A stretch of DNA of 64,000 nucleotides, taken from assembly GCA_030280995.1 (NCBI GenBank), contig JASXTE010000017.1, positions 25,060,498 to 25,124,497 on the forward strand, written 5' to 3'. Shown here piece after piece: positions 6,086-56,045 of this stretch. The notes beneath the pieces are model-generated. The model saw only the letters and a list, made by a program, of their open reading frames with translations. It was not told the DNA's origin and did not search any database. The stretch's first letter is position 1. Each line of letters starts with the position of its first letter. A program made the position numbers and the translations under genes. This DNA is from Hemileia vastatrix. Its lineage: Eukaryota > Basidiomycota > Pucciniomycetes > Pucciniales > Zaghouaniaceae.

Positions 6086-6089
6086 AAAG

Positions 6090-8027: not shown

Positions 8028-8039
8028 AAGTAGACTATC

Positions 8040-18815: not shown

Positions 18816-19341
18816 ATAGTTCTTTTTAATATTATAAATTTTTTGATTAAATAAAATGGTAATAATGAATTATATTTTTTATCCACAATTCCACTCTACT
18901 TATTCCCACTGCACAAAAAGGGTTCACTTGGTCCTTTCTTTACTGCTTGTGCATATATTTTATTGCCCACAGTGCTACAATTTTTTGTAGTGATTATCCC
19001 ACATCTGATTCAGGAATACTTTTAAATAATATAAGTTTTTTTTAAAAAAGACCTTATCATATCCAATATCCCACAAAAAAATACAACCTGTTTTTGTATT
19101 AAAGCCCGTTAATTATTAAGAAATTGTTAAAATAATAAGATTAGACCCTGGCACAGCTAGATCCATACCAACCGACCTAAAGTCTTTTCAATATTGAAAA
19201 CAATTAAATAAAATTATGATATCATACTAAATTATGGGCACCAACCATAATTCAGCACTTCTCATTTGCTCTGCTACAAAATGAGTGCATGTAGCATTTT
19301 TCTAATGTCGGACTGTTTTTCTTCCTTCCCTCACACCTTTA
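18816..19341. other. Unique AT-rich DNA after the satellite
   Basis: No gene or repeat recognised. The last satellite unit breaks off after AAATACCAAT at about 18810. A near-palindromic tract around ACTACAAAAAATTGTAG-like sequence (18970-18990) is the only local structure. Confidence 0.35.
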
Positions 19342-26471: not shown

Positions 26472-27435
26472 GTCGGCGTGGCGTAGTGAGAGATTCAGAC
26501 TTTTAATCTATGGACTTTTATAATACAAATAAGATCTTGTGAGTTACAAGATCAGACGGAGTTGGAAAATGCTGATGAGCCAACCTGTGATTGATTGTAA
26601 CGGAGAATTACAAGTAATGCGTAATCAGTGATTAATGTTGGTTATTAATAGTATTGCGATAACAATCAATCATTATATAATGTCTATTTACAAATGGAAG
26701 TCTAACCTTTTATAAGACAAATAAGATCTTGTGAGTTACAAGATCAGACGGAGTTGGCGAATGCTGATGAGCCATCCTAATATATAAACAGTTTATAATC
26801 AACAAAACAATTGAAACAGTGTGGATGATGAAAGACACCTGTGATTTATTGTAACAGAGAATTACAAGTAATGCGTAATCAGTGATTAATTTTGGTTATT
26901 GATAGTATTGCAATAACAATCAATGATTGTATCATAGTAATGACAAGCAATATGTATTTAGTTGTTATCACATTATTTAACCTATCTCTATAACCTATCA
27001 ATAAAGTATGTAGTACACATTATAAAAATAGGTATTAAGCAGTAGTAAGATAGTGTGAGAAAATGAAAAATATGTGTAGTTGATGTATTGTTGAGTTAGG
27101 AAGCACAATCGCTAGAAACTTGACAGTATCCTGCCAAAACTATACTTTGGTTTTTTGTACTTTGTTTTTTTTTCTGAAAAATTGCAAAGAAACTGTTTAA
27201 GTTGTTTAAAAATATGTATTTATTAGAATAATTTGGGTGTAGTCTACACTGTCTTATAACTTATATAAAAAAATTTCGTTCTTCATATCTCAAGATTTTT
27301 TCAAAGTATTATTACATATGCTTCATTAAATTTTCAAGTTGTATTCATGTTGAGTTCACCACAATGTCATTTTTTTTCTTGGTGTTTTTATCCCTGCCTT
27401 AATGTTTGCTCAAAAATATATGAATCAGGGTTCAA
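26472..27435 (-). repeat. Copia LTR-like DNA with a ~195-bp direct duplication
   Basis: Two direct copies at about 26509-26700 and 26704-26930 share TAAGATCTTGTGAGTTACAA, GACGGAGTTGG, GCTGATGAGCCA, GAATTACAAGTAATGCGTAA and GTATTGC.ATAACAATCAAT. The second copy has extra DNA after the first ~85 bp. The stretch lies directly upstream of the Copia Gag start, where a 5' LTR is expected. The rest (26930-27435) is AT-rich with a GACAGTATCCTGCCAAA tract that resembles 30165-30180. No gene. Confidence 0.5.
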
Positions 27436-27500
27436 TGTTGGGGACCTGCTAGAAAGTCCACCCCCCATATTGCATGGTGTATGTTTTGTGGTGTAGTATT
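27436..27500 (-). repeat. Terminus-like motif related to the 10.9-kb element end
   Basis: Reverse-complemented it reads TACACCATGCAATATGGGGG, then GTGGAC..TCTAGCAGGTCCCC, resembling the CACCAC..GAAATC / GGGGGTGAAC / CTAGCAGTTCCC layout of the 20512 end. A close relative is at 31024-31070. Similarity is partial, so common origin is tentative. Confidence 0.35.
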
Positions 27501-27699
27501 TCTAGTCAAACAATACTCCCAAAACCTCTTGGTACACCCCAAGTTTTCATCATCTGGAGTTTCAATGCTATCTGGTTATTTTTCATCATGGCTTCATTTG
27601 GTAACTTATGGGATGTCCTTGTGACCACTAGGAAGTGCATCTGAGAACCTTCCAGGTTCCTCATCAACAAATAGATTGGCACAGGTAATCTTTGGTTTT

Positions 27700-29762
27700 G
27701 GAGTTAGTGATGATGGAAACACATCCTTGTTAAAAACAAAGTTGTGTGTATAAAAAGGACTGTTATTTTCAAGGTTTAGTAATTAATAAGAGTTATGCTC
27801 CTCATGAAAACCTAGAAAATTTGCTTTGACATCATTTTTACTAAGTTTCCTTGAGTGTACCCTCTTTTCAATTAATGCAAATGCAAGGCAACCAAAAGTT
27901 TTGATATTATGGACTTTTGGTTTGAGATTAAACATTCTTTCTTAGGGGGACTTCATTTTTGGGTTAGATTTAGTTGGAATGTGATTTTTGATAAATATTT
28001 CTGTTTTGATCACTTTGCCCCACACATTTTTTGGCATATTGGCTTTGAATAGCATGGATTTAACCATCTGGATGAAAGTTCAATTGCTTCTTTCAGAGAT
28101 TGGGTTTTTCTGGGGAATGTGTGGAGAGGTAAAAATTATTTTGAATCCCTCACTGGCTGAAAAATCATAGAAATTTTTTTTGATAAATTTCCCCCACCAT
28201 CATATACAAGGTTATGGATCTTATTTTTAGTGAGTTTTTTTGAGAATCTCTTAAATTGCACAAAACAATCAAATGCATCTGATTTATTTTAAGTAGGTAT
28301 ACAAATCTGTATGAGGAGTAGGTATCAGTTAATTTGAAATAGTATTCATTTACAGAATCAGTAGCAATAAGTTTACCACTAAAATCACAATTTGCATATT
28401 ACAGAGGTCTAAAAGCAGTAAGAAAATGCCCAGTAAATGGCAGTCTGTCTAATTTAGCATTAACACAATGCTCTCAAAAGAAGGAATCACTTGATTCATT
28501 AAAATAGATATTCAAACTTTTGAGAAGATTTTTAAGGTAATCCAAGTTTACATGTCCAAGCCATTCATGCCAACATATTAGGTTAGATTTCTTGATGGAT
28601 GCAATCAGAGAGAGATTAGAATCTGGTGGCTTACAGTGTTTGGCATGGATTTGATATAAATTGGAGCCAGGAATCAATGCACCAGATAGCACAGTCTTTC
28701 TGTTGTTTTCAATTAGGATTGATCCATCATTTTGAGATTTATGCCCTCATTCTTGCTGTTGATCAGGTCTACCAAGCCAATTCATTGGGTGTAAATCATT
28801 TCCCCATTACCAATCTTGATTGGTAATTTCACTTGATTGTAAGATGAGACAATTTTCTTTTTTGGGAACATGTCAAATAACGCACCAGAGTCAAATATGA
28901 ATTTGTTGGGGTCAGGCAGTTTAGAGGTAGTGGTTGAGTAAAGATGTAGGATCTTGTGGGTGAAGTTTATAGATTTGGCGCTTGTTGTTTTAGGTTTCAA
29001 ATTTGGACAAAGCTCTGGGTGAAGAGCCCAGCATTGATCCTCTGAATGAGGACACTTGTCATTGTGTTTTCCGTTAGAACAGTATTCACATTTTTTACTT
29101 TGAGTTCCTTTTCCTTTCTTGGTGGTGAGGAATGCAGTTTCTGATGAATCCAAACAATCAGCAATAAGGTTTAACTTTTTAAGCATGATGTCAACAGTCA
29201 ATGGCTTCTTGGTGTCTTCAGAGGTTTTAATAATCATTTCACAATGCATTTCAAGAGAATCTGGGAGCTTTTTGAGGATGAAGTAGGGATAGTGTTGATC
29301 CTCAAATTTTTGTCTGATCAAGGTGAGTTCATTGATTGATTGTTGAAGCTCCATTAAAAATCCATGGACATTTCCATCAGTACTTCTGATGGCGCTGAAG
29401 TGGGTGTAAGCGGCTGCAACATTGGTTGGTCCTGTGGCTGAAAATTGTTTGGAAAGTTTGTGCCACAGACCAATTGGGTTAGCTCAGTCAGTTTTTTCCA
29501 CAAGGGAATTCAGATTGGTTTCATTTAGTTTCTGAACTATGATATTGGAAGATCGTTGACAACAGATTGTACAGGCAGCTTTGGCTTCTGCTGTTGCAGG
29601 TACAGGGATTTCGCCTTCAACCAGGTTGTCCAGGTCACATAGAGAAAGATAAAAGATCATTTTCCTATGCCATGTTAGGTAATTAGACAATTTTAAGATA
29701 GGGATGTCTTGGAGAAGCTGGCCAGTGTTATTTGATGGTTCCACGTCTGCAAGAAAAGTCAT
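27700..29762 (-). pseudogene. Copia-type Gag-PR-integrase, copy 2
   Basis: Gag begins at 29762 (SNYLTWHRKMIFYLSLCDLD) and, after a stop at 29484, continues 29354-28782 with the Gag core, a Cys/His cluster and a protease motif FIFDSGALFDMF. The GAG-pre-integrase block follows at 28692-28474 (CWHEWLGHVNLDYL). From about 28470 to 27780 the reading is broken by stops, but integrase pieces are visible (CVNAKLDRLPF, LTDTYSSYRFVYLL, MLFKANMPKNVWG, KNHIPTKSN). No RT or RNase H is recognisable below about 27780. The family is related to copy 1 but clearly diverged. Confidence 0.75.
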
Positions 29763-37850: not shown

Positions 37851-39059
37851 GAGCAATGGTTGAGCCACAACACTTAACATACCATAATATTCAATTTTAT
37901 ATCTAGATACATTTAATGTTGGAAGGTCAGGTTTGATATTAGTAGAATATCTTAAATGACACATAGTATACTAGGTCTGGAATATTATTTCAATTATCAA
38001 TTTTATTTCCACAAATATATAAAAAAGCATACTATTCAAGTCCTTTTTAAAATTTATATTAATAAAAATATAACTCTGTAAAAATATTTGCACATAATTT
38101 TAAATTTTCTAGACAAAAGTTGATATTGAGCACTTATTAATAGAAATTTCTTATTATTCCTTGAAGTAAAAAAATATAAGACAATTTTCAAAAAATTCAA
38201 TGTAGGAGAATATATATATATATATTTTATAAGAGGAAAAAATAGTAATGATTTTTTTTTACATTTACGCTATTGAAGAAACTAATTTAAATATATTTAC
38301 ACAAAACTTAGGCTCTAAAATAATGCACATCCTTCAGTTATCTATCTGTATATAGTTATTATTAAAATGTGAGTCAAAATTAATTATTAACATAAATGAA
38401 AAATTCAATTTTGAATATTCATCCAATATTATATATATTATCTACTTTATTCTCTTTCAAAACTTTGCTCTCATTATCTCATTATTTAAAATACCACCAT
38501 CACCATAAAATTCATTTAATTAAAATTTAAAATTTAAGATGCATTGGAAAATTCTCTTTAAATTTTAAACCAATTTTTCCAAGGGAAAGATCAGTATTTA
38601 ATGAAGTCTCCACTCCAGTTATTATGCAGCAAGAAAGATCTTTAGTTCATGTTTTTGGATTATTAAAAGAAGGAGAAGAAACACCTATTGGTAATCTTTC
38701 TAATGAGAAGAGCTGCCAAATTGGACAACTACTTGGAGAAATTGGATCTGGATCTCAAATTTTAACTGAGGAAAGGGCTTTAAATCCCCAAATACCTTAT
38801 TATTTTTCCTGTACTTGGTTCTACTTTTAAACAGGAAGTATAGAATTTTTGGCCTCCTTTTTTTTTGACTGATTTTATTATTCAGTGTAAAGAAGTATTT
38901 CTAAACGCTCAAATTGATTTGACACTGATTTGACACTAAAATCCAACCATCTTCTTCAATATTTCTCATTCTTGTATTAACAAAAATTCTGAAATTTCTT
39001 GGACAAGGGATAATTAAATGGCAAATCTATCTATACTTTTTGGCATTCCAAATCTGGGT
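37851..39059. other. AT-rich DNA with one short unassigned frame
   Basis: Mostly AT-rich non-coding. A 68-codon frame at 38624-38830 (MQQERSLVHVFGLLKEGEET...) has a more gene-like composition than its surroundings but no recognisable domain, and I cannot say whether it is expressed. A TA run is at 38214-38226. Confidence 0.3.
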
Positions 39060-40064
39060 AGGCCACTTAGTTGAAAATTTGATTGTAACTTGGTTGTAAG
39101 AAGATCATTGTGTTACCAGGTGTTAATTTGGTTGAAGGGAGTTAACTGGATTTTTTTGGGTTGATTTTTGGTGTTTTGGAATGGTTATATGTGGTATTTT
39201 TTTTGTGATTTGATGGTTTTATGGATTTATATTTTTGGTGAATGAAGTGTGCTCTTGGAATGACCACTTTTTTTCTGGTGCGCTCTGGTGCGCTCTGGTT
39301 TGCTCCGGTGATTTTCTGGTGCAAAAGCGAAGTGTACTGGAAAAATTCTGTCATTGTGGCCAAGTTTGGTCATGGTGAAAACAGTGCAAAGTTTGGTCAC
39401 TGCAGAAAAGTTTGGCTATTGTGGCAAAATTTGTTTAGAATTTATTATGCTTGTTAGATCAATAGTTTATTGTAGATCCTATGCATGTAGGGTATTGTTG
39501 GAAAAGTCTGGAATAGGAGAATGAGATAGAAGGGAGGGAATCTTAGTCTGATACAGGTTTTTGGTCTTTAGTTTCGATTAGAAGGGTCTTTTTGAATAAT
39601 TAACAACCACCTTCATATTTTTCATTACTCAAAAAAAAAATTAATCATTTATAATAACGTTATAAAATAACAATTTTACATAACAAGTTAAATATTTTAC
39701 TCAACAACTCTTAAACATTAACATATAGGGTATCATTAGAAAGGTCTCAACTCCAGGGACTCATTTATAGTATCTGTTTTCAAAAATTATTAAAATCTAA
39801 AAACGTTAAAACTTCTATCTTTTAAAATATTGTTTCTGGTGTAACTTTATTGTTGCATTTCAGTTGTTTTGCACAGAAGAACCGCTCAATCATCCTAAAA
39901 AGCGTTTATTAGACAGGGTTTCATTCTTTATTATTATCAAATAGAATTTTAAGCTTATTGATCTAAAAAACTCAAAAATTCATTTAGAGGGACAGGGTTT
40001 TCTCTGATTATCCAACTCCTTTGGATTCTGCTTACAGCAAGGTGACTGTAAGAGTCTACCTACA
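39060..40064 (+). repeat. Diverged family-2 5' LTR, copy B (left edge uncertain)
   Basis: The right edge (CTACCTACA, 40064) is 4 nt before the primer-binding site. The last ~100 bp resemble the family LTR end: GGGACAGGGTTTTCTCTGA, CCAACTCCTTTGG, GTCTAC. The left edge cannot be fixed by eye; 39060 is a guess from the usual LTR length. Confidence 0.45.
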
Positions 40065-40068
40065 TATT

Positions 40069-40085
40069 TGGCGCCCAACATGGGG
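40069..40085 (+). promoter_or_regulatory. Primer-binding site, copy B
   Basis: TGGCGCCCAACATGGGG, same as copy C and one base different from copy A; 4 nt inside the LTR edge. Confidence 0.75.
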
Positions 40086-40239
40086 TAATCAATTTCTCTA
40101 GCTTTTAAAAGAACTATCTTGATTGTTGGAATTTTAGCCTGCAAGAGGCTTGTTTTCTGAAACTCTTATTAATTTATTTATCTTAGCCTGAAAGAGGCTC
40201 ACTAATTGGAATGCTTTATCTTTAATCTAATCTATTAGG

Positions 40240-42730
40240 ATGTCTTCTGCTGCTGGATCTGGTGTGTCTCTTCCTATGAAACCATCAGTTAGGATTGTTT
40301 CTTGGGATGGGCCCAAGTTTAATGGGGAAGAAGTTAAATGGTTTTTGAGAAGATTTGAGGTTTCTGCTTTGGTGGATGGAGATACTAACCTGGATATGGT
40401 AAAGCAGATCAGGTTTTTTATTTTTGACAGAGAGGTGGAAAAGGAGGTCATTGCTATGGAGGGTTATAAAAGGTTTGATTGGATAAGGTTTTCAAAAGAG
40501 ATGGTTGATTGATGGGGTGTCAGGTATACTATGGTGGATCTCAATAAGATTGTCAGTGATTGGCAAGCTAAAAGTGGTGTTTCTAATATGGTGGACTTCA
40601 AACAATTATGTGGACAATTTGATGAAGTGGTGGAATATCTGATTTTGGTGGAGTAATTGGGTCATTAAAATCAGGCCAAGGATCTATTCTGGTCTTCTTT
40701 TAGTAGGGGTATTAAGATGGATGTGTTAAAAGAACTCTCTAGGAAAAATTTGATGAAGGATCTGCCTAATGGTGAACAGAAACTGCTAGCTTTAGAGATG
40801 ATCAAGGAGAATATTCAAGGCTACTTAAAACTCATGGCACTGCACAAATATCAAGAATCTTGTACTCAATATGTTAGAAAGGTTAGAGAAGTATTGGCTG
40901 AAAATAACAATATCATGATTCAAGCTCAAGAAGCCAAGAAGGCTCAGATGGGAAAGCATGTTGCTAAAGATGAGGGAAATGCAGACAACAAGATGGTCGA
41001 TCACTTGGCCGATTTAACTAAACAATTAAAAATATTTTTCCAAGAGACTAAGAAAGCATATAGGGCCCCAATTGCTTATTAATCAACTTCAACTTCTTAT
41101 CAATCTAGAGGATATGAATGTCAAAATTATAATGACAATGGCCATGGAAATCGCTTCTCAGGAAATGGTAGGAATGGGAATGGTAATGGTGGAAATTGTT
41201 TTAGAGGTGGCTATGATGAGCCAAAGGTGTTCTCCTATTGTAATAGGAAGGGGAACAGAGTGTTTTACTGTAGATAAATATTTGGATGCTGGGAGAGATT
41301 TATTTTATGGAAAGGTTTATAGATTTTGTGATAGATCGTTCATCAAGCCTAGCGATGGAAAAGCTCCTTCTGATTTGGTTAGAAAGAATATGGCTTCTGA
41401 AAGAGGAGCCCGGTTTGAAGAATTGAAGGATGATGATGATAATGCCAAGGGTGGAAAAAATGGTGATGGTAAAAGCGGTGGTAAAGCTGATAAAGATAAA
41501 GAGAAAGAGGTCAGTAAGGCCACATTTTCAACTTCTTTTGGTGTTTTGGGGCTGGCAACGGTTTCTAGAGTGGAAGGTAACTGTATGGCTGGTGAATATG
41601 ATGTCAATGCTGCTAGAAGAGCAGCTGCTTCTAAATCTAAAAGTAGCATTCAGAGCCAACTAATGGCTAAATCTTGAAAGGCAATTAAAAAGTCAAGACC
41701 TTACTCTAAGGACAAAATTTATAATATGCAGAAGGGGATGGCTGATATGGGGCCTCCTAGTTATGGAAAATTTGATTTAAATGGTGAGCCTATGACAGAA
41801 GATGATTTGGATTCTGAGGAGGACGTACCATTGGTGTCACTACCCAGACCTAGTTTTAGTGGTCAAATTCCGATGGAGGGTGTAAGAAGGACCAGTGATG
41901 GATCAGGTTTAGTGAAAGAAGCTGGTGATGGAGCTAGGGTTATCAGTAGTGAAGATGTTATTATGGGGGGTGAAGATGGAAATGTGGGTCCTCAAGGAGT
42001 TTCCAGGGCCAAGGTAATTAAATCTCAAGTCCAGTACAAACGGCCAGTAGTATCCAGTCAAGAGAATGAGATGGAAGATATTTTAAATAGGGTGAATCAA
42101 CATAAGATTACCTTATCTTTAGGCAAGCTTTTCACAATTAGTCCAGCACTTTCAGAGAAGCAAAAAAAGCATCTGATAAGCCAACAGGTTTCCGCTGGAG
42201 AGGTGGAATATATATATGAAAATTCTGAGAAGTTTGGGGAAGATGTTGAAACACATTTTTCTGCTCCTCTGGGCTACCTGGTGGTAACTCTTAATGGTAA
42301 AGAGGTAAAGGCCTTGGTTGATTCAGAGTCTCAAATTAATTTGATTTCTTTAGAGAAAACAAAGATTATAGGCTTGCCAATTAAAACTGGTACTGGGGGA
42401 AACCTCAGAGGTATTGGAGGGCATGAAACAGAGATGATGGGTACGGCTGAGCATGTCAAATTAGGTATTGGTGGATCTATTGGTAAGGTTCAATTTTATG
42501 AGGCCAGAGGGGCAGTTAAAACTGCTCTTGGTGGTCCTTTTTTAATGGATTTTGAGGACTGGATTGGATATTAAGCTGGAATGGGTATTAGTTTGAAGAT
42601 AACTGGTGAGGATATGAGGAGGCTACATATGCAGTTGGCACCTCCTGGAGATGAAGGTTGGGAGACATGGCCAGGTATCACTACTCTGTGTCAGTGTTGT
42701 ACTTGAATCAAGAAGCGGCGTATTAAACAG
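40240..42730 (+). pseudogene. Family-2 Gag-protease, copy B (old, many stops)
   Basis: The ATG at 40240 gives MSSAAGSGVSLPMK and the Gag core WDGPKFNGEEVKWFLRRFE. Stops follow at 40510, about 40655, 41080 and 41675. Gag continues in pieces to GMADMGPPSYGKFDLNGEP (41735-41790), then the protease region with ALVDSESQINLIS near 42310-42350, where the DSG catalytic Gly is Glu. The last frame stops at 42574, and tail sequence similar to the other copies runs to about 42730. Divergence from A, C and D is much larger than among them, so this is the oldest copy. Confidence 0.75.
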
Positions 42731-42794
42731 ATGGCTTCTGGTGAATTATGTTTAGAGGGTAATTTTGGAGACCCCCATTTTTTGGGGTAGCTGG

Positions 42795-42859
42795 GGCTGA
42801 TCATTCTAATGTTGCAATCTCTCCCCAGGATGAGATCACAGATTGCAATAGGTCAGCTC
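42795..42859 (+). promoter_or_regulatory. Gag/Pol junction hairpin, copy B
   Basis: Outer GGCTGA/TCAGCT and inner 9-bp stem TTGCAATCT (42812-42820) with AGATTGCAA (42840-42848). Relative to the other copies three stem pairs have changed on both sides (C-G to T-A, A-T to G-C, C-G to T-A) while pairing is preserved. The stop/start here has decayed to TAGCTG. Confidence 0.7.
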
Positions 42860-42976
42860 ACTAGGAGATAATTCAAGTGGATTGTCAATTATTTTCTGTT
42901 AATAATACGTTAAATTGTTATTATATCTTCAAATTTTTGCTTTGTCTCACTTCTCTGTCAAGTTTTTCGATCATGT

Positions 42977-44046
42977 TGTAGAAATTCCTATAGTACTAGC
43001 TATAGGCCTTGACCAAGGGAGTTGGAGAAAAACCAGAGAGAAAATCCCCTGTCCCTTTAAAATAGAGTGAGATTTACTTGCTAAAGTAAGTTGGTTCCTG
43101 TTTTTCTAAAGCTCCTTTTTAACACACTTTACTGCTTGATGAGCCAAGAAAGTATTCACCAGATAGACGACCAGACCAAAGATCTGAAATGTAGAACAGA
43201 GTCCACACCAGAGACAGCAAAGATACTTGATGTAGGCTACAAATCCACACCAGAGACAGCAATAATACTTGCTATAGCTTGCAAGACTATAACAGAGAAA
43301 ACAGTTGCCAAAGTTAAGTTAAATGAAGAACTTACTTGCAACAAACACAGCCAATCGTGACCAGAAAAAAGTGAAAACTGAGTGAGGAACAATGATATCA
43401 CCTCTGGATGGTTGTATGATGATTAAGGTTGCCCCAAACTGTCTTATTCACTATGTACACACAGACCACTAACTAAGAGCCCATGTGCACCCACCAATCT
43501 GGCGCCTGAACCCACCAAATTGCATAATAAACCCTCCTGGAGCGCTCCCCAACCTCCTAAAACAGAGGCGGGCAGGCCGCCCGACGTCAGAGATGCCTCC
43601 TGAAGCCAGAAAACCAATAAAAACAACTAATCTACTTAGAAAATTAGCTACAACTACTAAAACCTTTAAAACACGGAATTTCACTATAGCAACATTGGGA
43701 CATGAAATATAGAGAAAAATTAGCTCTATCCAATGGTACTAAGCACTTAACCATAAGGCTTAAGGTTAGCCCTTAAAACATGAAAAACAAAATTAAACAG
43801 CAATCTTTTATAAATGAAAAATGAGGAAATGACCCCTTAAAACTAAGAATTTGAAAAATGTCTACAAGACATAAAATATAGAGAAAAACCAGGGCTATCC
43901 AATGAAAGTACCCACATACCCGCAGAACCAATATCCACGGAATAAAACCAGAAAAATAACCAATTCCTTAACAGATGTCAATTAAGACATGCACAAACAG
44001 CGCCAAATCACACAACAAAGGCCCCTGCCAATGTTGGAAGACCACA
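42977..44046 (-). repeat. Family-2 3' LTR, copy C (1070 bp)
   Basis: On the plus strand from TGTAGAAATTCC to GGAAGACCACA, i.e. TG...CA in element sense. It lacks an ~18-bp GC-rich part (around 43592) that A and the 5' LTR of C have. Plus-strand (antisense) CCAAT at about 44029 lies 65 bp before the antisense gene's ATG. Confidence 0.85.
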
Positions 44047-44054
44047 TCCTCCCT
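44047..44054 (-). promoter_or_regulatory. Polypurine tract
   Basis: AGGGAGGA on the element strand abuts the TG of the 3' LTR exactly, as expected for the plus-strand DNA primer of an LTR retrotransposon. This supports assigning 44047 and beyond to the inside of the element. Confidence 0.65.
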
Positions 44055-44094
44055 GAAATTGAGAATGTCCACATTCTTTCTTCATCCAACCACC

Positions 44095-44735
44095 ATGTTT
44101 AACCTTCTTCCCAAATCTGCCTCTGAAACAGGCCCCTGCCAATACTGCATTGACAATAATTTAATCTGCACCATGACACCACCTGTCCATCCATACAGAA
44201 CGTCCTGCGATGTCTGCCAATCCAGAATGAAGACCTGCCATAGACCTGGTCCACTTTCTTCCACAACATATTCACCTCCACCTCAACCTGGTCCTTCTTC
44301 TGCCAGCACCAAAAGATCTAGGCCATCCATCCTGATACCCAGATTAATCAAAAGGCTCCACCCTTCCCAGAAGAGTGCCACAACCCATAAAACAACTAGT
44401 TCCCCCATCCCTGGTCCATCTGATGGTAAAGAACATTCATTTCTTCCTTCAACTTTAAAACTGATAACTTCTCAGTTCCTCCCTCTTCTGATAGTGATGA
44501 TAACAATGTAGGATCCATTGCACCACCAACACCAACGCACTTGCCCACTATCAAGGCCAAGTTCCAACAACACACATCTCAACAGAAACAACTTCTGCTT
44601 CACTACTTCCAATCCACTCCTTCTAGAGATCCACAGGACATTGAGAACAGAAGACACCTCATTCACCAGTTCAAGGCTAATTCTGAACACTTCATTTCAT
44701 CTCTTGATTCCCTCTGTAATTCCACTAGTACTTGA
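44095..44735 (+). CDS. Antisense Zn2Cys6-like protein, gene 2 of copy C
   Basis: The ATG at 44095 starts MFNLLPKSASETGPCQYC. Six cysteines are spaced CX2CX6CX12CX2CX6C, followed by Pro/Ser-rich sequence and a basic patch (STKRSRPS). Exon 1 is 44095-44425 and exon 2 is 44476-44735. The 50-nt intron has GTAAAG, branch CTGAT at 44461-44465 and CTCAG, and restores an acidic Ser/Asp stretch and a helical C-terminus (QFKANSEHFISSLDSL). 196 aa, no stop inside. A bare six-frame reading would end at 44511 in the intron-retained form. It lies antisense to the retrotransposon, 48 bp from the 3' LTR, so its promoter is probably inside that LTR. Function is inferred from the Cys pattern: a small DNA-binding regulator or Gag-like accessory; unproven. 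Confidence 0.65.
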
Positions 44736-44799
44736 TTTTGATTCAGAAAAGAAAAATTGACCACACCCTCTATAGGATGTAACCACAAACAACCCTCAG

Positions 44800-45345
44800 C
44801 TTTAAGTCTTGGGGGACCATCCTCATTTTATAGTCTTGGGGGACTCAAAAAACCTCAGTTTAAAGTCTTGAGGGACTCAAAAACCTAAATCATAAACCCA
44901 GAACCAGAGATCAACCACATTAAGAAACAGAGAAAAAACTAAAATTCTGGGGTAATTGTAAATAGAGCTGCCAGCCCATCAACTACCCCCAAACTTGCCA
45001 TTGCTGAATTCGGAGGCTCCCCCTGTGGATACCCTCCACCAATCTTTCAAAACCAACTCCAACAACAAAAACTTTTGCCTCAGTATATAGTCTTGGGGGA
45101 CTTACAACACTCAGTTTAAAGACTTGGGGGACTAACACAGTGTTCAGTTTAAAGTCTTGATGGACTAGTCTTGATAAAATATTGAAACCATCCAGTTTAA
45201 AGTATTGGAGGACTAACAGAAACCAGATTTCAGTTTAAAGTCTTGAAGGACTGCCTTGATACCATAGCTTTTTCAGTTTAGAGTCTTGATGGACTGACTT
45301 GATAATATAGCTTTTTCGGTTTAGAGTCTTGATGGACTGACGGAA
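44800..45345 (+). repeat. Cluster of ten ~22-bp boxes
   Basis: Copies of CAGTTTAAAGTCTTG followed by RKGGACT occur at about 44802, 44832, 44858, 45080, 45110, 45142, 45190, 45229, 45273 and 45317, all in the same direction with irregular spacing. Single copies recur in the 3' region at about 47782 and 48040, and in copy D at 63030 and 63305 (reverse orientation, same element sense). The cluster sits between the two antisense genes, upstream of gene 1. A GGGGTAATTG...CAACTACCCC hairpin module lies at about 44950-44990. Confidence 0.7.
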
Positions 45346-45489
45346 TTTCGCATAAAATAGACGCAGCCAATTTCATGCAGCACACCTCTACAGCCAAACT
45401 GTTGAACTTTCACCTTCACTTCATCATCTACCCATCACTGACAAAAATCTCCTCCTATCCCTTTTTATCATCTTTTCTCACCACGGATC
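45346..45489 (+). promoter_or_regulatory. Probable promoter of antisense gene 1
   Basis: CATAAAATAG at 45350, CCAAT at about 45368, then a C/T-rich leader to the ATG at 45490, as in fungal promoters without a strong TATA box. Inferred from position and composition. Confidence 0.35.
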
Positions 45490-46973
45490 ATGGCTGGATC
45501 TCCTTATGTTAACCCTTCTACTCTCCCTTGCTTCACTGCTCCCAAGGACTATGCCTGCAAACAGTGCATCCACATGTGCAGACCTTGCACATTCACTCTT
45601 CCAAATCCTGAATCCAAATTCTACTACAGGGCTTGTGACTCTTGCTATTCCAAAAAGAAAAGATGTGACAGAGACCCCAACTACCCTATTCCTCCTCCTT
45701 CACCTTTCAACAAATACATCTCCAGATCCCCTACCAGATCCCCAGAGCTTGGTCCTTCCTCTTCCTCTCTATCTTCTGCTCCTTCCAGAAGATCCAGAAG
45801 CTCAGCTTCCCACACTCTTCCCAAAAGACCAGCCTTAGCTTCCCAAGAAACTGCTTTTATCTCTGCCAAATTAGCTCCAAAAGCTTCAAGATTATTTTCC
45901 AGGATTCTAGACTGCGTCCAGTCGTCCCGGCCAACGTCGGGCGGCCTGCCCGCCTCACCAAACAGTGAAAATTAGGGCCAAAACCTCCAAAAACGGCCAG
46001 AATAGAGCCAAATTCATTCAGACAACAACAACAACTCAACCCAACTACCTCCTACTGCTCCCAGAGCAATGCAATCCACCCTTCCAAAGTCCAAAAGCAC
46101 CAAAATTTCTCAGATTTCTAAGAGACCTGCCAGAGAATCCCAAGAAGAAACCAGAACACCTCACACTGCTCCACAACAACAACTTTGTCCCCAACTAAGA
46201 CAAAGAAACTACACCTCTCCTCTTTCATCCAACTACTCTTCTGACAGTTCCATCTCTTCAAAATCTCCATCCAGAAGAGATCAATCTGCTTCCAAATCCC
46301 CCTCTCCTGCTCCATCCTTTAACAACCCTGGTACTCCATTACCAGCACCTCCTCCAGCTGAATCTAACAGAAATAACAACCACAACAACAACAACAATCT
46401 CACTGCTCTAACTAGGCCCCAGGAACATCAGCATCCCAGTTCAACTTCTCAGGATCCTTCAGAGGAAGACAATGAAAATCCATATCTTTCCCTAGTTGAT
46501 CCACCCACTATGAACATTACAAAATTGTCAGAGATCTATATCCCAGCTGCTTACAGATTTGATGAGCTTCCAATCAGTAAGTACCAAATTAATTATTCCA
46601 TTTCTTCAACAAAAATAATTACTGATCCAATTCTTCTTGTCTAGTTGGCACCCCTCCTCCTGACTCTATTATTGGAGTTGGCCAACCTCTTGAAACTTCT
46701 TTGACCCTGGATTATGGAGACATGAAGAAACAGCTAAGCACCATGTGTTCCAACATGCTAAAAGCCTTTGCCCTCCATGGACCTTTGAATGACTTTGTAA
46801 AATCCCTGAGAATGTGCCTGTTAGACGACCACTGGAAAATGTCTAGGATAATTAAACACACCCTCAAGCACTCCATTCCTGCCTCTTCTTCTTCCTCCTC
46901 TGAACTTCCCTCTAATCCAATTCCTGACCATTACAATCCCTATAATCTCTCCAGCAGGATGCACTTCAAATAA
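45490..46973 (+). CDS. Antisense Zn2Cys6-like protein, gene 1 of copy C
   Basis: The ATG at 45490 starts MAGSPYVNPSTLPC. Cysteines are spaced CX2CX6CX15CX2CX6C, the second half with YSKKKRC as in zinc-cluster activators. Proposed exons are 45490-45964, 46022-46576 and 46645-46973 (452 aa). Intron 2 (46577-46644) is strong: GTAAGT, branch ACTGAT, TCTAG, phase kept. Intron 1 (45965-46021, GTGAAA to TTCAG) is weaker but removes two in-frame TAGs. The middle is Ser/Pro/Asn/Gln-rich and disordered, with an Asn run. The C-terminal ~100 residues (LDYGDMKKQLSTMCSNMLKA...) look folded and helical. Antisense to the element. A transcription-factor-like role is inference from the Cys array and activator-like composition. 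Confidence 0.65.
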
Positions 46974-48309
46974 CACAGTGCTTCCCACAATCCCAACAAA
47001 AAACAAAAACGTCATCACAATCCAGACCAGCCTCCAGAAGCTTCAACATCCAGACAATGAGCTCCTGCAAAAGATTAGAAACATAATAATAATATAAAAC
47101 AATTAATGATAATAAATTCAAATTTTTTTTTTATGTAAGATACTAATATATTAAAATTAAAAATTTATAAATAAAATAAAATAAAATAAAATAAATGAAA
47201 TAAAATAAAATATAAAAAATAATACAAATGGTATCCCCCAGCCAATTAATTTGCTGATCCCCTGATACCTTACCCACATCCAAGTGCCCCTTGATGTGGA
47301 TACACAATTAATTCTTTTAAATGGTTAACTGAAAACAAAATTCAAAAAATTTAGAAATTCAGAAAATTATAAAAAATAATGAAACACAGAAACACATGAA
47401 ATAAATAATAAATAAAAAGAAAATAGCATTGCCCGGCCAATTGATGAGCCTTTCCCCACCAATGCTTGCCCACATCCAGGTGATCCTGAGGTGGTAACAC
47501 CTTATATTTTTGATTTTATAATTTTAAACAACCCCCATTAAAAAATTAAAAGAAAAAAAAAGAGAAAAAAGAAAATAATCTAAAACTGCTATCTAGCAAA
47601 AACATAAATGCAAAATCAAAGACAGTCCAGCTCCATAGATGGTCCAATAAGAGAAAGTCCGGTCCATAGAAATAATCACTGGGTGGGCTCTCTCCAATAA
47701 GTAAAAATGATGGGAGACCACCAGTGATCCACCACCAATCTGAAAGAACCAAAGATAAAGAATCAAGTCCCAAACCAGTATAAAGTCATAGTGGACTTGA
47801 AACCTGAAAAATAAACAACAGAAATAGAATTCAACTAGGCAAAACAAAAGACTTGAGACAGACATTCTGGGGTAACTGTTCTACAGAGCAGCCAGCTCAT
47901 CAGTTACCCCCACACTTGCCACAATAAAATCTAGAAGCCCCCCCTGGATACCTTCTAACCAACAAATCACAACATCCAACACAATAAAGCAAAACCAATA
48001 AAATTGAAGAGTCCGGCACTTGAAAACCAAAGGAATTACCAGTTTAAAGTCATAGAGGACTAAAACCTGTGAAAAGAAACCAATACTAGGATTCAACCAA
48101 ATTAAGAGAAAGGGTTGGAAACAGACAATCTGGGGTAACTGTTGATAGAGCCGCCAGCCCATCAGTCACCCCCACACTTGCCAAGACAAAATCTAGAGGC
48201 CCCACCCATGGGTACCCTCTAACAAAAGTTTCCAACAAACAGATGCATAGCATCACCACAAAAAAAACCAAGATTAAAGAATGATCAGTAGTTTATCCTC
48301 ATTGCGGAG
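46974..48309 (-). other. 3' region of copy C between Pol and the antisense genes
   Basis: No gene. In element sense it holds two hairpin modules (GGGGTAACTG ... CAGTTACCCC type) at about 48131-48173 and 47871-47911, each followed by CTTGCCA and a TCTAGA-GCCC tract. It also has two CAGTTTAAAGTC boxes, and two ~190-bp-spaced copies of a GATGTGGG..AAG ... CAATTGGC block (about 47430-47500 and 47230-47300). It ends in AAATA repeats near 47170-47215. All of these are repeated in copy D at 62791-64000. Confidence 0.6.
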
Positions 48310-51300
48310 TCAATCTTCTTCATGCCTAGTGCCTCTGGGATAAAACCTCTTCACTTGGTCTTCAGCCACCCTCTTTTTTAAGACTGCACCATCCAACTCT
48401 TCTAAAACATAAGAACCTTTAAACACCTGAGATCTGACTCTGTACGGTCCATTCCATCTGTCAGTAAACATTTTCCCCCACTGACTCTCCAAACTTCTAT
48501 TATACACCAAAACCAAACAAACAGGTTTCAAGGGATTCCTGAGTATATGAGCCAACTTCTTGTCCCAGTATCTGACTGATTTTTTCCTAATCTTCATCAT
48601 TCTAGAGTATGCCTTCTCCTGACATTCCTCTCTACATTCCAACTGTTGCATCCTGGCACAGAGAAAATCTTCTGTTGAGTGCACGTCATCCCAATCAATT
48701 CAAAGATAAGAGACAGCTTCCAAGTCCAGTGGTAGAACCGCTTTCTGACCAAAAATTAACTCATAAGGAGAATAGCCAGTTGTCCTCTTCACAGTGACCC
48801 TATCAGCAAATAACACCAAGGGTAAATAATGCCTCCACTTTTCAGCACTATCTCCGCACATCTTCACCAAAGCATTCTTGATAACTTGATGGCCTCTTTT
48901 GACCATGCCTTCAGCTTCAGGATAATACGGTGTAGCCACTCTAACTTTAGAACCAACAATAGCCACAGCTTCATTAAATTCGCCACCAAACTCTGGCTCG
49001 CCATCAACAGTCACCAACTTCATTAACCCATACCTATAAATCTACTCCTTCTTCAAAAACTCTGCCACATTCTTGGCAGTCAAAATAACCAGAGGCACTG
49101 CCTCAACCCAACCAGACAAATCATCCCTAGCAACAATCAAGTATTTATACCTGCCTTCTTTTATATGGACAGCATCCAGACTGACTCTTCCAAAAACAGT
49201 TGATTCTCCAGTAGCACAGCCCACCTCTTTAGGTTTCAAGTGACTTCTTCTTTGAAATTCTTCACAAGATTGAACCCAACCCTGCACAGCCAACTTCATA
49301 CCTGGCCACCAAAATCTGTCTTCTAATCTTCTATAAGTCTCACCAAAGCCTCTATGACCAAGGTCTTCATGCAAAGACTTCAAAACCAATTCTTGACCCT
49401 TCTTCTGAGTCACCACCACTTGAGGATCCTCATCAACCGCCTTCCTGACACATAAAATCCAGGAATTTTCTTCATGATTGCCAACCAAGTATCATCATCA
49501 CAACTATCTGGCCTCTCCAAGGGAACCAGAAATTCCACCAAAATAAAATAAAACCCAGACTGACCCCAGGTCTCATCTTCAAAATCTACCAAAACAACAG
49601 TCAAGGGTACAATTCTATCACCAAAATCACCAGTATGAAAATGAGCTAATTGAGCAGCCCAACCACAACACCAATCCTTAAATTTCGGCACGTCCTTCTC
49701 TTTCCACTGAACCTTGTGAGAATCCAGTTCACTAACAAAAACACCCTTTTCCAATTTTGAGCTGTCCCAAACAACAACCCCATCTTCATCAACAAAAACA
49801 TCCTGATCACCAGAATCAGGATCAGATCCAGCCAGTTTAACCTATTGAGGGAGGTCAGAAAAATCTTTAGCACCCTTTGTGCTGGCCCTAACCACTGGAA
49901 CATCATGGTCAAACTCTTCAGCCTCAGAATCTTCATCTGTAGGTGGCCTCCTTTATAATCCATCAGGCATAGTAAAAGTTTTACCTGGTTTGTGTACCAG
50001 GTCAAAAGAAGAATGTTGAATAAATGCCACCCATCTAGTCATTGGAGCATTTGGAAGACTAGGTGTATTGATCATCTGAACCAAAGATTTTGCATCCACC
50101 TGCAGCTCAAAATGCTGCCCGCACAAAACTGTCTGTAGCTTCTTTAAAACTTTAGCTACGCCACACAATTCCAACTTAGGTTGAGAATACCTAGATTCCA
50201 CCACATTAAACACCACAGACTCATATCTTACTGGCCTGACCCTCCCAGTCTTATCCTCCTGAGATCAAACAGCGCCAGCAGCAATATAACTTGAGTCCAC
50301 TGCCAGATAAATTTTTCCAGTACCAACACCATAATCCAACTTGTGAAGAACAATATCTTCACCAACAACCTTTTTCAACTTCTGATAAGCCTCTTCGCAC
50401 TCTTCAGTCCATTCCCAATCTGCATCTTTTTTGGTCAACCTCCTTAAAGGTGAAGCCAACAAAGAAAAATCCTTAATAAAAATCCTGACATATACACATA
50501 CACCCAAAAATCCCCTGACTTCAGTAGTACTTTTAGGCCTTGGCCATGACTGGATATTATTAATCTTCTTCTTTGCCATAATCCTTCCCTCTTTACATAC
50601 CACATGACCCAGAATTTCCAAAGCAGGAACACAACAACAGAATTTTGACCCTGAAATGGTCAAACCAGCCTCTTCAATCCTAAACAACACTCTCTCTAGA
50701 GTTATTGCATATTCCCACACAAACCTCCTTATGCCAGGGTTCTCTGCTAACACCTCATTACCATAATCAGTGGATGGTCCTTTAATTCAACCATCATCAA
50801 TAAAAATACCAGCATGATTAGGAACCTCATCCTGCAAAATCCAAGCCATCTGTGCTTGATAAACTGCCACTGAATTAGTTGCTCCTTGAGGCAACCTAGT
50901 GAGCTGAAATCTTCCCAAAGGAGTCTCAAAAGTTGTGAGAGGCCTTGAATCCGTATGTAGTTACCTCCCATCATAACCACCCATAATATCACCCAAACCA
51001 TAACACACCCTTCCAGCAAACGCTTCAACAAAATCCTCTGCACTTGGTGGAATACCAGCGTCCTTGATAGTGACTCCATTCAAGGCTCTAAGATCATGAA
51101 CCACCTGCAACTTTCCATTCTGCTTCTTTACACAGAACACCGGACTTGAGTAACTGGATGTTGACTGTTTGTATAACCCAGTCCTGACTCTTTCCCTAAC
51201 AATCTCCACAAAATCCTCTCTGATAGCGGCTGGAATCGGAATAGGTTTTATTTGCCAAGGTTCATGGCAAACCACAGGAATCAAGTAAGGTTCCCCATAA

Positions 51301-52480
51301 GAGTGCTTCAATACACCCCTTTCCTCCTAAACAAACGCCACAGCTTTTTCCCTTAGCACAATAACGTGCAACAACAACTTCTTTTCTTCTTCAGACAACC
51401 ACCCATTAGGACCAATATTAACAACTTTCAATCTTTCCACAGTCACCCTAGCCGTCTCTACAAATTCTGGAGTATTCTTCACCAAAGGAGTACAGTGCAG
51501 ATCTCTCAACAAAGGAGGTCTCTTCAAGGGCGGATTCAAACCCACAGGCATAGGCTCATTGACAGGCCTAATCTTCTGTGCTACCTTCTTATACTTTGCC
51601 GCTCCACCTTCAACTTGAGGGATCTTCAGAAATTCTTCATCACCAGACCTGGAACAAAAACCAAGGGTTTCCCCATTGCTCACATATGTGGCCAAGGTAA
51701 TGTTTTTGAAAGGTGTAGAAGAAACCCTAGCAGTGCACAATTGGGAGGACTTACTTTTACACCCCAATCTCACCACTTCAAAACTTTTCCGCAATTCCAC
51801 ATCTTCATCCTTGCTTCCAACTTCCAAATCTTCAAATCTTGATTCATTTTCTGAATCACATCTTCTAAAATTGTGCAGTTTATCCTCATGCTGGAGGCCC
51901 AAAAATTGATCATGATGATCTTCTCTCTTCAAAATTTTCTGCAGTATAACCTCATGCTGGAGGCTCAAAAATAGATCTTGATGATCTTCACAAAAATATT
52001 TTGCATCTTCTTTCTTCATTATCTTCAGATTTTTTTCTTGATTTTCATGAATTATCTTGAAATTTTTATTTTCTTTTCTTGAGTTTTCTTCTTACCTACA
52101 AAAATAACCAGGGGTTTCCCCAATGCTCACAGGTGTGGCCCAGGTAATGTTTTTGAAGGGTGTAGAAGAAACCCTAGAGGTGCACAATTGGGAGGACTTA
52201 CTTTTACACCCCAATCTCACCGCCCCAAATCTTTTCCGCATATCTTTCAATAAAGATATATAACCAATCTTCTTCCTTGAACTTGAATTAAAAATAATTA
52301 AGAATCTTGAGAGAGAACAGAGACTTGATAAAAAACTTGATGAATACTTTCAAAGAAGAGAAACAGTAAAAAGAGAAAGATGAAAATCCACTTGGTATAT
52401 CTCCAAGGGAGCTGACCTACTACAACCTGGGATTTCCTCATCTCGGGGAGAGGTTGTAGCACTAGGGTGATCAGCCCTTA
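48310..52480 (-). pseudogene. Family-2 Pol (RT-RNase H-integrase), copy C
   Basis: Order on the minus strand: N-terminal linker with repeats (to ~51600), RT (SSPVFCVKKQNGKLQVVHDL at ~51140; active site IFIDDG at ~50790), a TGA directly after it, connection (RGFLGVCVYVRIFIKDF), RNase H (YLAVDSSYIAAGAV; QVDAKSLVQM), integrase zinc part (HEDLGHRGFGETYRR ... CEEFQRRSH, with one Cys changed to Phe), integrase core (LDAVHIKEGRY; KLVTVDGEPEFG; PEAEGMVKRGHQ), C-terminal YPRGTRHEED, stop at 48310. The start codon in the junction is ATA instead of ATG. Stops at about 51327, 50265, 49042 and others inactivate it. No chromodomain. Confidence 0.85.
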
Positions 52481-52483
52481 TTA
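52409..52483 (-). promoter_or_regulatory. Gag/Pol junction hairpin, copy C
   Basis: Same outer and inner stems as copies A and D (inner CTACAACCT/AGGTTGTAG). The overlap reads TAATA, so the Pol ATG has been lost in this copy. Confidence 0.7.
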
Positions 52484-54862
52484 CTCTAAAAAAGACAGAC
52501 TCTCAATAGAGTCTGAGCCGCGCTCCAAAAAACCAGAGGCAGCACCCACTTCCTTCCTTCTCCTTCAGCATTCCATGCACTGGCACATTGAAGAGAAACC
52601 AGGCCTAGTCTCCCAACCATCTTCTCCAGGGGATGACAACCTCATGTGAAGCCTCCTTTCGTCTTCACCAGTCAACTCCAAATTGATTCCCAAATCAAAT
52701 TGATAACCAATTCTTGCCTGAAAAGCCATCAAGAATGGTCCACCCAAAACTGCTTTTACATTACCTTTAGCAATGTAAAAATGAACCTTCCCTGAGGCTC
52801 CTCCAACATCTAACTTCACAAATTCTGAAGTTCCAACCAATTCAGTGACATGGCCATCGATCCCTCTCAAATTCCCACCAATACCAGTTTTGATGGGGAG
52901 GCCCATATGAGTTGCCTCAAACAAAGAAATCAGGTTTATCTGAGAACCTGAATCCACCAATGCCCTTGCCTCCCTGTCATTCAGAGTGACATTGACATAT
53001 CCCAGAGGAGCAGAAAAATGAGTTTCCAACCCCTCACCAAACTTTTCAGCAGAATCACAAATGTATTCCACCTCACCAGAAGAAACTCTTCTCCTGGTCA
53101 ACAACTTCTTCTGCCTATCAGCCAACCCTGGACTGATAGCATACAATTCCCCATAAGATAGGGAAACCTGACCCTGATTCATCCTTTCCAGGAAAGAGTC
53201 CATATCATTAACTTGACCAGACACTACTTGCCTCTCAAATTGAGCTCTTTGCTTCAACACCTTGGTCCTAGAAGCTTCTTGAGGACCAGCACCACCAACA
53301 GATTTACCATTAACAGGAACCAAACCAGATCCCTCAGCAGAACCTCTGACTCCAAAAAGCTTTGGCAATGAAGCCAAAGGGAAATCCTCCTCAGAGTCAG
53401 AATACACCTCCATTGGCATTGGATCACCATTCAGATCCAATGCACCAAAACTAGGGGGGCCCATATCAGCCATACCCTTCTGCATCTTGTACAGCTCCTC
53501 TTTGCTGTACCTCTTCCTAGCTGCACTCAACTTAGGATCCCCCTTTAAAGCATTTGGCTTTGGTTGGGCCTGAGAACTGCTCTTATGCCTACCCACCTTC
53601 CCTGCTTCCACATCATAAACACCAGCCAAGCATTCACCACTTGACTGTCCACCACAAGAATACAACTCCAAACCACCAAAGGAAGTAGAAAAAGAGACCT
53701 TATTGACCTCCTTCACCTTTCCCTTGACGTCCTCATCTACCTTAACAGAAGACTTCCCCTGATCAGGAATCTCCTCAAACCTTGGCCTCCTTTGATTGAG
53801 ACCACCCCTTCTCCTGACCAAATCAACAGGAGCCTGCCCCTCACTGGGCTTCACAAAAGAACTGTCAGGGAACTTAAAAACTTTGCCATCAAACTCCAAT
53901 TTTCCTTCAGACACATCTCTGTTCAGTGCCCAACAATCATATGACCTGTGCCCCCTCCTACTGCAATAAGAGCAAACCCAAGGATCACTCCTACCAGCCC
54001 TCCTTTTAAAATCTCTTGGCTGAGAAGGTGCCTTATTAACCTTCTTGGCCTCCTGAACAAAAATGTGCAGCTGTTTTGTAAGATCAGTCAACTGCTCCAC
54101 CATTGGGTCCCTCTCCTGTTTGGGAACCTGCACCAAATTCTTCTCCTCCTTCTTCTCTCTAACTTCCTCTTCAGCCAAAGCCTCACTGACTTTGCTGACA
54201 TACTTTGCACACCCCTCCTGATAGGTGTCCACAGCCAATAACTTCAAATGGGCCTTAACAGCCTCCTTCACCATATCCAAGGCAGGCAATTTCTGATCCC
54301 CATTACAAAGAGTATTCATCAATTCCTTTCTTGACAACTCCTTCAACACATCCATCCTGACATCTCTAGCCAGGGCAGACCAAAAAACATCCTTGGCAGC
54401 AATTTCATGTGCCAGCTCCTCCACTTCCACCAAGTATTCCACCACATGATCAAACTGTAGCAAAAACTTCTTGTAACTATGTAAGTTACCAACACCACCA
54501 TAAGATTGCCATTCACTGACAACCTTGTTCAGATCCACCATAGTGAACCTGACCCCCCATCTATCCACCATCTCCCTACACAAAAATTTCCAATCCCTCT
54601 TCTTGTAGCCAGACATGGCCACAATCTCCTTCTCCACTGACCTATCACCAATAAAGAAGGTAATCTGCTTCACCATGTCCAGGTAGGAAGCACCATCCAC
54701 TCCAGAAGCAGTTTCTTACTTCTCTAGAAACCACTTGACATCCTCCCCATTAAACTTGGTACCATCCCAAGTTTTAATTCTCACACACTCCCTCACCATC
54801 ACAGAAGGAGGACCATCCCCCCCACTGACAGTCACCACAGGAATAGCAGAACCAGAAGCCAT
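52481..54862 (-). pseudogene. Family-2 Gag-protease, copy C
   Basis: The ATG at 54862-54860 (MASGS..). Codon 49 is TAA (54718-54716) where copy A has TAT. After it the frame is open for 711 codons: Gag core, intact zinc knuckle CSYCSRRGHRSYDC, disordered middle, KRYSKEELYKMQKGMADMGP, protease motif ALVDSGSQINLIS (DSG intact) and a GGNLRGIDGH flap-like segment. A TGA replaces the last Cys of CQCMEC at about 52565; the family stop is at 52481. Only two nonsense changes separate it from a full frame, making it the best preserved Gag-PR here. Confidence 0.85.
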
Positions 54863-54932
54863 TCCTCCTGACCAAAACACCAAAAAGAGCCAACCAAAGA
54901 AAACAGAGATTCCAAAGAACTAGCAAGTTCTA

Positions 54933-54949
54933 CCCCATGTTGGGCGCCA
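54933..54949 (-). promoter_or_regulatory. Primer-binding site, copy C
   Basis: TGGCGCCCAACATGGGG on the element strand, 4 nt inside the LTR end GGATTGTCTACA. Confidence 0.75.
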
Positions 54950-54953
54950 GAAA

Positions 54954-56045
54954 TGTAGACAATCCTTAGTACTAGCTATAGGCCTTGACCAAGGGAGTTG
55001 GAGAAAAACCAGAGAGAAAATCCCCTGTTCCTTTAGAAAAATAGAGTGAGATTTACTTGCTAAAGTAAGTTGGTTCCTGTTTTGCTAAAGCTCCTTTTTA
55101 ACACACTTGACTGCTTGATGAGCCAAGAAAGTAGTCGCCAGATAGACTACCAGACCAAAGAACTGAAATGTAGAACAAATTCTTCAATAGAGAGAGAAAA
55201 GATACTTGATGTAAGCTGAAAATCCACACCAGAGACAGCAATAATACTTGCTATAGCTTGCAAGACTATAACAGAGAAAACAGTTGCCAAAGTTAAGTTA
55301 AATGAAGAACTTACTTGCAACAAACACAGCCAATTGTGGCCAGAAAAAAGTGAAAACTGAGTGAGGAACAGTGATATCACCTCCGGATGGTTGTATGATG
55401 ATTAAGGTTGCCCCAAACTGTCTTATTCACTATGTACACACAGACCACTAACTAAGAGCCCAAGCGCACCCACCAATCTGGCGCCTGTACCCGCCAAATT
55501 TCATAAAAAACCCTCCTGGAGCGCTCCCCAACCTCCTAAAACAGAGGCGGGCGGGCCACCCGACGTCGGAGATGCCGCCTGAAGCGGCCCGGCCTCCCTG
55601 AAGCTAGAAAACCAATAAAAACAACTAATCTACTTAGAAAAATTAGCTACAACTACTAAAACCTTTAAAACACGGAATTTCACTATAACAACATTGGGAC
55701 ATGAAATATAGAGAAAAATTAGCTCTATCCAATGGTACTAAGCACTTAACCCTAAGACTTGAGGTTAGCCCATAAAACACGAAAAACAAAATTAAACAGC
55801 AATCTTTTATAAATGAAAAATGAGGAAATGACCCCTTAAAACTTAGAATATGAAAAATGTCTACAAGACATAAAATATAGAGAAAAACCAGGGCTATCCA
55901 ATGATAGTACCCACATACCCGCAGACCCAATATCCACAGGATAAAACCAGAAAAATACCAAATTTCTTAACAGATGTCAATTAAGACATGCACAAACAGC
56001 GCCAAATCACACAACAAAGGCCCCTGCCAATGTTGGAAGACCACA
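54954..56045 (-). repeat. Family-2 5' LTR, copy C (1092 bp)
   Basis: Canonical TG...CA ends in element sense (TGTGGTCTTCC ... GATTGTCTACA). Equal in length to the LTR of copy A. Flanked on the right by family-2 pol DNA at 56046. Confidence 0.9.

Follow-up and report, generated by a model that had tools for sequence, protein, structure and literature searches.

Two intron-bearing antisense genes with a zinc-cluster-like domain in a Ty3/Gypsy-type retrotransposon family of Hemileia vastatrix

How can introns persist in a retrotransposon, and what could the genes that carry them do for the element? The question is raised by a 64,000-nucleotide stretch of contig JASXTE010000017.1 of Hemileia vastatrix (hereafter the window; the assembly has 791 contigs and 747.6 Mb in total). 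Here, a Ty3/Gypsy-type element, copy C, reads on the minus strand through gag, protease (PR), reverse transcriptase (RT), RNase H (RH) and integrase (INT), and two plus-strand genes, ORF1 and ORF2, lie antisense to it between pol and the 3′ long terminal repeat (LTR). The answer we prefer, with a probability of about one in two, is that copy C represents a Gypsy family with two standing antisense accessory genes, spliced by the host and encoding small nuclear zinc-cluster proteins that would bind DNA and regulate the element itself. This suggests an abundant mobile element that may bring along its own regulators.

A first-pass annotation of the sequence had placed the two genes at 44095-44735 and 45490-46973, and both places, between the pol end (48310) and the 3′ LTR (42977-44046), proved right. 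ORF1 consists of exon 1 (44095..44425, with a six-Cys domain at 44137-44238), an intron of 50 nt (44426..44475, GT-AG with a CTGAT branch site) and exon 2 (44476..44735); the spliced product has 196 aa, and its ATG lies 48 bases from the inner edge of the 3′ LTR. A start inside the LTR was rejected: the upstream frame is open in many C copies, but a stop closes it in locus L061. ORF2 comprises exon 1 (45490..46576, with a six-Cys domain at 45556-45666), which has in-frame stops in the window copy and is open in others, an intron of 68 nt (46577..46644, GTAAGT...TACTGAT...TAG) and exon 2 (46645..~47060). The end of ORF2 had to be moved, as the frame is conserved to about 47060 and 46973 is merely the early stop of this copy. 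A third intron, proposed in the middle of ORF2, was rejected as well: the stretch is open in 11/20 other family-C copies and is hence coding. Thus, each gene has one short canonical intron.

The copies were collected by a genome search with 45490-46580, whose best 40 places, from 4419 first-look candidates, comprise the window plus 39 further ones of 94-95% identity. The family-C sample comprises 20 loci, namely 19 from this search and L028, the neighbouring element of the window. Both genes find a match in all 20 (ORF2 only partially in L021 and L025). The ORF2 query cannot recover copies lacking ORF2, and since 19 of the copies were found by it, the independent witnesses of presence are ORF1 and L028 only. 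A second family, E, was first met in L037 during the work on the adjacent element B, and a search with its ORF2 part gave at least 40 places. Family E can be aligned with the window over ORF1 exon 2, ORF2 and the sequence that follows up to the pol end; in L061-L063 the alignment also covers the LTR and ORF1, and L060 holds other sequence and no ORF1. A foreign insertion confined to one copy is thereby rejected, as the genes match in 20/20 family-C copies and in a second, diverged family.

The introns were scored in each copy by a strict donor-branch-acceptor pattern. The ORF1 intron fits it in 20/20 family-C and 2/3 family-E copies, and the ORF2 intron in 17/20 and 13/20, respectively; the ORF2 frame is kept as far as the real donor (46577) in six of the 20 family-C copies. 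The introns read GT-AG only on the antisense RNA, so that transcription must be antisense for splicing to occur. In the sense genomic RNA they are present as reverse complements and are therefore not removed during retrotransposition, which lets them survive. An uninterrupted Cys array is found in family C in 17/20 copies for ORF1 and 15/20 for ORF2. Two of the outcomes named beforehand as refuting, a foreign insertion missing from other family members and a Cys array or splice sites that other copies fail to conserve, thus did not occur.

Purifying selection on the two frames, a check proposed in the first-pass annotation, was evident both within and between the families. Within family C we aligned 21 rows for ORF1 and 20 for ORF2, the window included (L021, whose match is not full length, was left out of the latter). 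A variant found in at least two copies must have been transmitted by replication, and singletons are mostly mutations that followed insertion. The ratio of nonsynonymous to synonymous variants (N/S) was 0.42 (ORF1) and 0.52 (ORF2) of expectation for the shared variants vs. 0.90 and 0.83 for the singletons. The contrast has p = 0.014 for the pooled genes, and 0.077 and 0.071 for ORF1 and ORF2 singly. As a control, the two other plus-strand frames of exon 1 gave N/S of 0.80-1.18 for shared variants.

The comparison of C with E gave a ratio of nonsynonymous to synonymous divergence (dN/dS) of 0.23-0.30 for ORF2 in 20/20 E copies, with dS near 0.9-1.1, so that exact values are rough, and of 0.18, 0.21 and 0.22 for ORF1 in the three usable copies (L061-L063). 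Nine loci among L043-L059 were omitted for ORF1 because they stop short of its Cys region, and their Cys matches are to the related ORF2 domain. By segments (19 E copies pooled, without L040, which is broken by another insertion), ORF2 gave 0.20 at the N-terminus and 0.06 in the Cys domain (45541-45690), then 0.29, 0.76, 0.35, 0.31, 0.20 and, at the C-terminus, 0.09; the middle (45901-46200) is the near-neutral segment of 0.76. The same method applied to one copy each gave 0.35 for pol vs. L037 and 0.27 for gag-pol vs. B. With 0.18-0.30 for the antisense genes against 0.27-0.35 for gag-pol, the antisense genes are constrained as strongly as the element's own gag-pol proteins.

The two families differ unevenly along the element (three copies compared for the LTR, 1-6 for pol; L040, L051 and L060 are absent from the family divergence comparison). 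The divergence is 0.12-0.15 over most of the LTR, rising to 0.21 for the innermost 170 bases. ORF1 shows 0.20-0.28, the stretch between ORF1 and ORF2 0.18-0.24 and the ORF2 exons 0.17-0.30, followed by 0.11-0.17 at 47200-48309 and 0.10-0.14 at the end of pol. It thus roughly doubles across the antisense genes (44095-47060) vs. the flanks. Among the introns, that of ORF2 (46577-46644) diverges by 0.135, below the adjoining exons (0.26-0.29), and that of ORF1 by 0.26. The proportion of synonymous differences (pS) was 0.53 in ORF2 (L040) and 0.23 in pol (L037), figures presented as a contrast within one copy. Most simply, the antisense cassette would have a longer history behind it than the backbone, by way of recombination between families.

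What kind of proteins do these genes encode? The spacing CX2CX6CX12-15CX2CX6C noted earlier is borne out: ORF1 has C15-X2-C-X6-C-X12-C-X2-C-X6-C48 and ORF2 has C23-X2-C-X6-C-X15-C-X2-C-X6-C59, with loops of 12 and 15. The six Cys codons of ORF1 are each kept in 18-20/20 copies, and eight of ORF2 each in 18-19/19. The two domains are related to each other (16/39 identical, E-value 2e-5, for E-family ORF1 against C-family ORF2; 36% identity between the window's own two). A plain Zn2Cys6 domain, as read in the first-pass annotation, is not supported: the window's ORF1 and ORF2 score 14.3 bits each against Pfam Zn_clus (PF00172), below its curated cut-off of 21 bits. The C and E pieces of ORF2 reach 12.8-17.0 bits, and a piece of E-family ORF1 scores 22.5 bits, split over two stretches, when taken as 58 aa and 19.6 bits as 118 aa. 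Moreover, the matched halves are swapped: the first triple of ORF1 aligns to profile positions 17-36 and the second triple of ORF2 to positions 1-16, so that the halves do not follow the Gal4 order. The C-terminal triple is rich in Lys/Arg and resembles one half of Zn_clus, the one that contacts DNA. We read this most naturally as a Zn2Cys6-like cluster whose halves stand as if circularly permuted, so that plain Zn_clus membership is uncertain. Because the Gal4-type cluster is pseudo-symmetric, a permuted version could still hold two zinc ions. An AlphaFold model of the window's two domains was uninformative (predicted local confidence, pLDDT, 54). As a side observation, Zn_clus gave 13 matches in the same genome (150 of 3255 candidates scored), 12 of them at positions below 111 kb on contigs not otherwise met and the other on a 33-Mb contig; the 12 could stem from contamination or from unplaced pieces.

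A candidate binding site lies next to the genes. Between ORF1 and ORF2 (44832..45338), the palindrome AGTC-N6-GACT, which has no strand, forms an array of seven exact sites; two more are found at 47784 and 48048, which makes nine within copy C and 12 in the window vs. 0.52 expected. In 39 loci (20 C and 19 E) we counted 337 palindromes with spacer 6 and 0-20 with spacers 2-5 and 7-10, and among all 256 four-base half-sites at spacer 6 the next best after AGTC has 47 sites. Conservation was scored with a 22-base repeat unit, a 38-base unit having been discarded for its off-register matches. In units picked blind to the arms, arm conservation was 0.95 (C) and 0.94 (E), only slightly above the left flank (0.92 and 0.90); in units picked blind to the spacer, two spacer positions drop to 0.31-0.68. 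Palindromes of fixed spacing are typical targets of Gal4-type Zn2Cys6 domains. A separate repeat of about 100 bases (CTGGGGTAA...CAGCC...ACCCCCA) is present three times around the antisense genes, at 44956, 47870 and 48135.

The preferred reading would work as follows. Antisense transcription of both genes would start from a promoter within or beside the 3′ LTR, and the host would splice the transcripts, giving two proteins. Both products, whose Cys domains are related, would be small zinc-cluster proteins of the nucleus and are predicted to bind DNA. They would control transcription of the element itself, possibly as dimers bound to the neighbouring AGTC-N6-GACT palindromes, such that feedback balances antisense (regulator) against sense (gag-pol) expression. 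This mode could be likened to that of HBZ of human T-cell leukaemia virus type 1 (HTLV-1) or to the proposal made for the TRP28 proteins of plant Retand elements.

Several points weigh against this reading. Antisense transcription and DNA binding by both proteins are what we infer from the sequence. The within-family test is modest by itself, and the presence of ORF2 in copies fetched by an ORF2 query (all but L028 and the B copies) is not independent evidence. In family E, the Cys array is uninterrupted in only 7/20 loci for ORF2 and 1/3 for ORF1; many E copies are decayed. The Zn_clus matches are weak, and the remaining triple of each domain, run alone against Pfam, gave no match. As for the palindromes, none occurs in the LTR of the window copy, and since tandem repeat units share descent, the conservation of spacing and arms is merely suggestive. 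In element B, conservation of the arms (0.75) falls behind that of the left flank (0.94), and B copies have the palindrome array without the antisense genes: those at L037, L038 and L039 show no Cys array of the ORF1/ORF2 kind, and tblastn found no credible match to the genes in L038 and L039, the sole match in L037 being a nested E copy.

A fuller version of the preferred reading can be suggested only tentatively. Here the element would house a complete self-regulating circuit: its two transcription factors, related to each other and both antisense and spliced, would have a circularly permuted zinc cluster and act through a palindromic operator array of their own. The cassettes would recombine onto a shared LTR/gag-pol backbone like specificity modules, and families with the array alone, such as B, would respond in trans.

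The alternative that survives best, possible but rather doubtful in our view, accepts real antisense proteins and lets them act on RNA or particles instead of promoters. They might be export factors in the manner of Rev, serve as chaperones akin to nucleocapsid or counteract a host factor, and the Cys cluster would then be RNA-binding or structural. The weak and swapped Zn_clus match and an LTR devoid of palindromes fit such a role, and Rev-like proteins occur among retroviral accessory proteins (PMC7264820). It is countered by the palindrome array that adjoins the genes and by the likeness of the Lys/Arg-rich C-terminal triple to the DNA-contacting half of Zn_clus.

The genes may also have been captured from a host zinc-cluster gene and ride as passengers, selected at most for host benefit. 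The short fungal-type introns and the Zn_clus-like domain do look gene-like, and B elements do without antisense genes; against this, the genes are kept in two families, selection acts on variants transmitted between copies, and the copies are numerous, which makes the explanation improbable. This evidence speaks against passenger status only, and capture as an ancient origin may be compatible with the data.

Even less probable is that the antisense RNA itself is the functional product, through double-stranded RNA or silencing control, and that the proteins matter little. Other retroelements are known to produce non-coding antisense transcripts (PMC7264820), but the constraint acts at the level of codons (dN/dS 0.06 in the Cys domain and 0.09 at the C-terminus) and the introns are conserved, so that we disfavour this reading. 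Chance open frames in a stretch of low complexity rich in Pro, Ser and Asn could be suspected from the near-neutral middle of ORF2 (0.76), yet they are refuted by the between-family dN/dS, as well as by the within-family N/S, the dN/dS of ORF1 and the conserved splice sites.

How do the genes compare with known systems? HBZ is spliced and is a basic leucine zipper (bZIP) protein; HTLV-1 is a human retrovirus, and the likeness drawn here is by analogy, with no homology claimed. The likeness consists in an antisense gene expressed from the 3′ LTR that encodes a nuclear regulator (PMC11963269, PMC7264820). Antisense accessory genes at the same place are described for maize Grande, rice RIRE2, Silene Retand and fungal Boty (PMC7264820, PMC11963269). 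The Grande gene has its own promoter (PMC7264820) and its product is a nuclear protein (PMC11963269). The plant Gypsy precedents named in the first-pass annotation are real, though precedents are not confined to plants, as brtn of Boty illustrates (PMC7264820). ORF1 and ORF2 fit the class aORF-3R by position, lying between pol and the 3′ LTR antisense to gag-pol. For this class, an ORF is expected in most copies and conserved like the element's proteins; ORF1 is present in 20/20 copies found by ORF2 or by adjacency.

With Retand (where the aORF-3R is TRP28), Grande and RIRE2, our element shares an antisense accessory ORF at the same place (PMC7264820); it differs in being non-plant and in having two genes, one intron in each and a six-Cys Zn2Cys6-like domain, TRP28 being likened by description only. 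Boty brtn of Botrytis cinerea and Sclerotinia is likewise a fungal antisense gene at this place (PMC7264820, PMC8365987); one gene is described there and two are found here, and the likeness is one of description. With the fungal Gal4-type Zn2Cys6 domains (PF00172), the genes share six Cys in two CX2CX6C triples with one basic half, but here the halves match in swapped order and the genes are antisense in a retroelement.

The function of antisense genes in LTR retrotransposons is stated to be unknown (PMC7264820, PMC11963269), and the 2020 review urges that antisense and spliced transcripts be examined (PMC7264820). The word "intron" is absent from the main text of two reviews on such genes, PMC7264820 among them. 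At the level of titles and abstract openings, we found no retrotransposon described with a zinc-cluster gene, priority being uncertain as most subscription papers lie outside the coverage, and among the papers listed none describes a permuted Zn2Cys6 domain. Antisense genes in this position are already known; two that bear introns and a zinc-cluster-like domain look new. In family C, the conserved introns fix the coding strand, and the codon-level selection, the metal-binding motif and the candidate binding site make function testable. The family also illustrates how a retrotransposon can keep introns, and its zinc cluster is possibly a circularly permuted one.

Copy C (42977..56045, sense strand minus) is defined by its LTR pair and its gag/protease, RNase H and integrase domains. 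The 3′ LTR (42977..44046, minus) has TG...CA ends, is identical at 1020/1093 positions to the 5′ LTR (54954..56045, minus) and is the candidate source of the antisense promoter. The gag-pol region (48310..54715, minus) has broken frames in the window copy: the gag-protease frame runs from 54715 to 52565, and RT, RNase H and integrase follow down to 48310. The order PR-RT-RH-INT after gag is consistent with Ty3/Gypsy. Pfam matched the protease in the gag frame, RNase H and the integrase zinc-binding domain; it gave no match for the RT piece, which was named from its translation. Between the pol end and the 3′ LTR lie 4263 bases, in which the antisense genes read on the plus strand. A target-site duplication was not found, as the flanks at 42977 and 56045 differ; copy C is nested and could be a recombinant. 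When ORF2 exon 1 (161 and 378 aa) or gag served as the protein query, no relatives were found, a weak absence since the gag search was also empty; sequence searches of the PDB gave nothing useful, and Rfam had no match within the window.

A GC-rich LTR stretch, GGGCnGGCCnCCCGACGTC, occurs at 43570 and 55549, and its reverse complement recurs at about 45934, in the weakly constrained middle of ORF2; its copies vary at CG steps. Element B, a diverged Gypsy element on the plus strand (38900-42860), was truncated by the insertion of copy C, and its family has at least 40 places in the genome at 90-91%. Elsewhere, the window contains another Gypsy element with gag, protease, RT and integrase domains, as well as Copia-type gag/pol frames, at 5303-9238 and 25374-29483. 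An AT-rich tandem array at 11309-18836 consists of 13 units of about 607 bases that are 63-88% alike.

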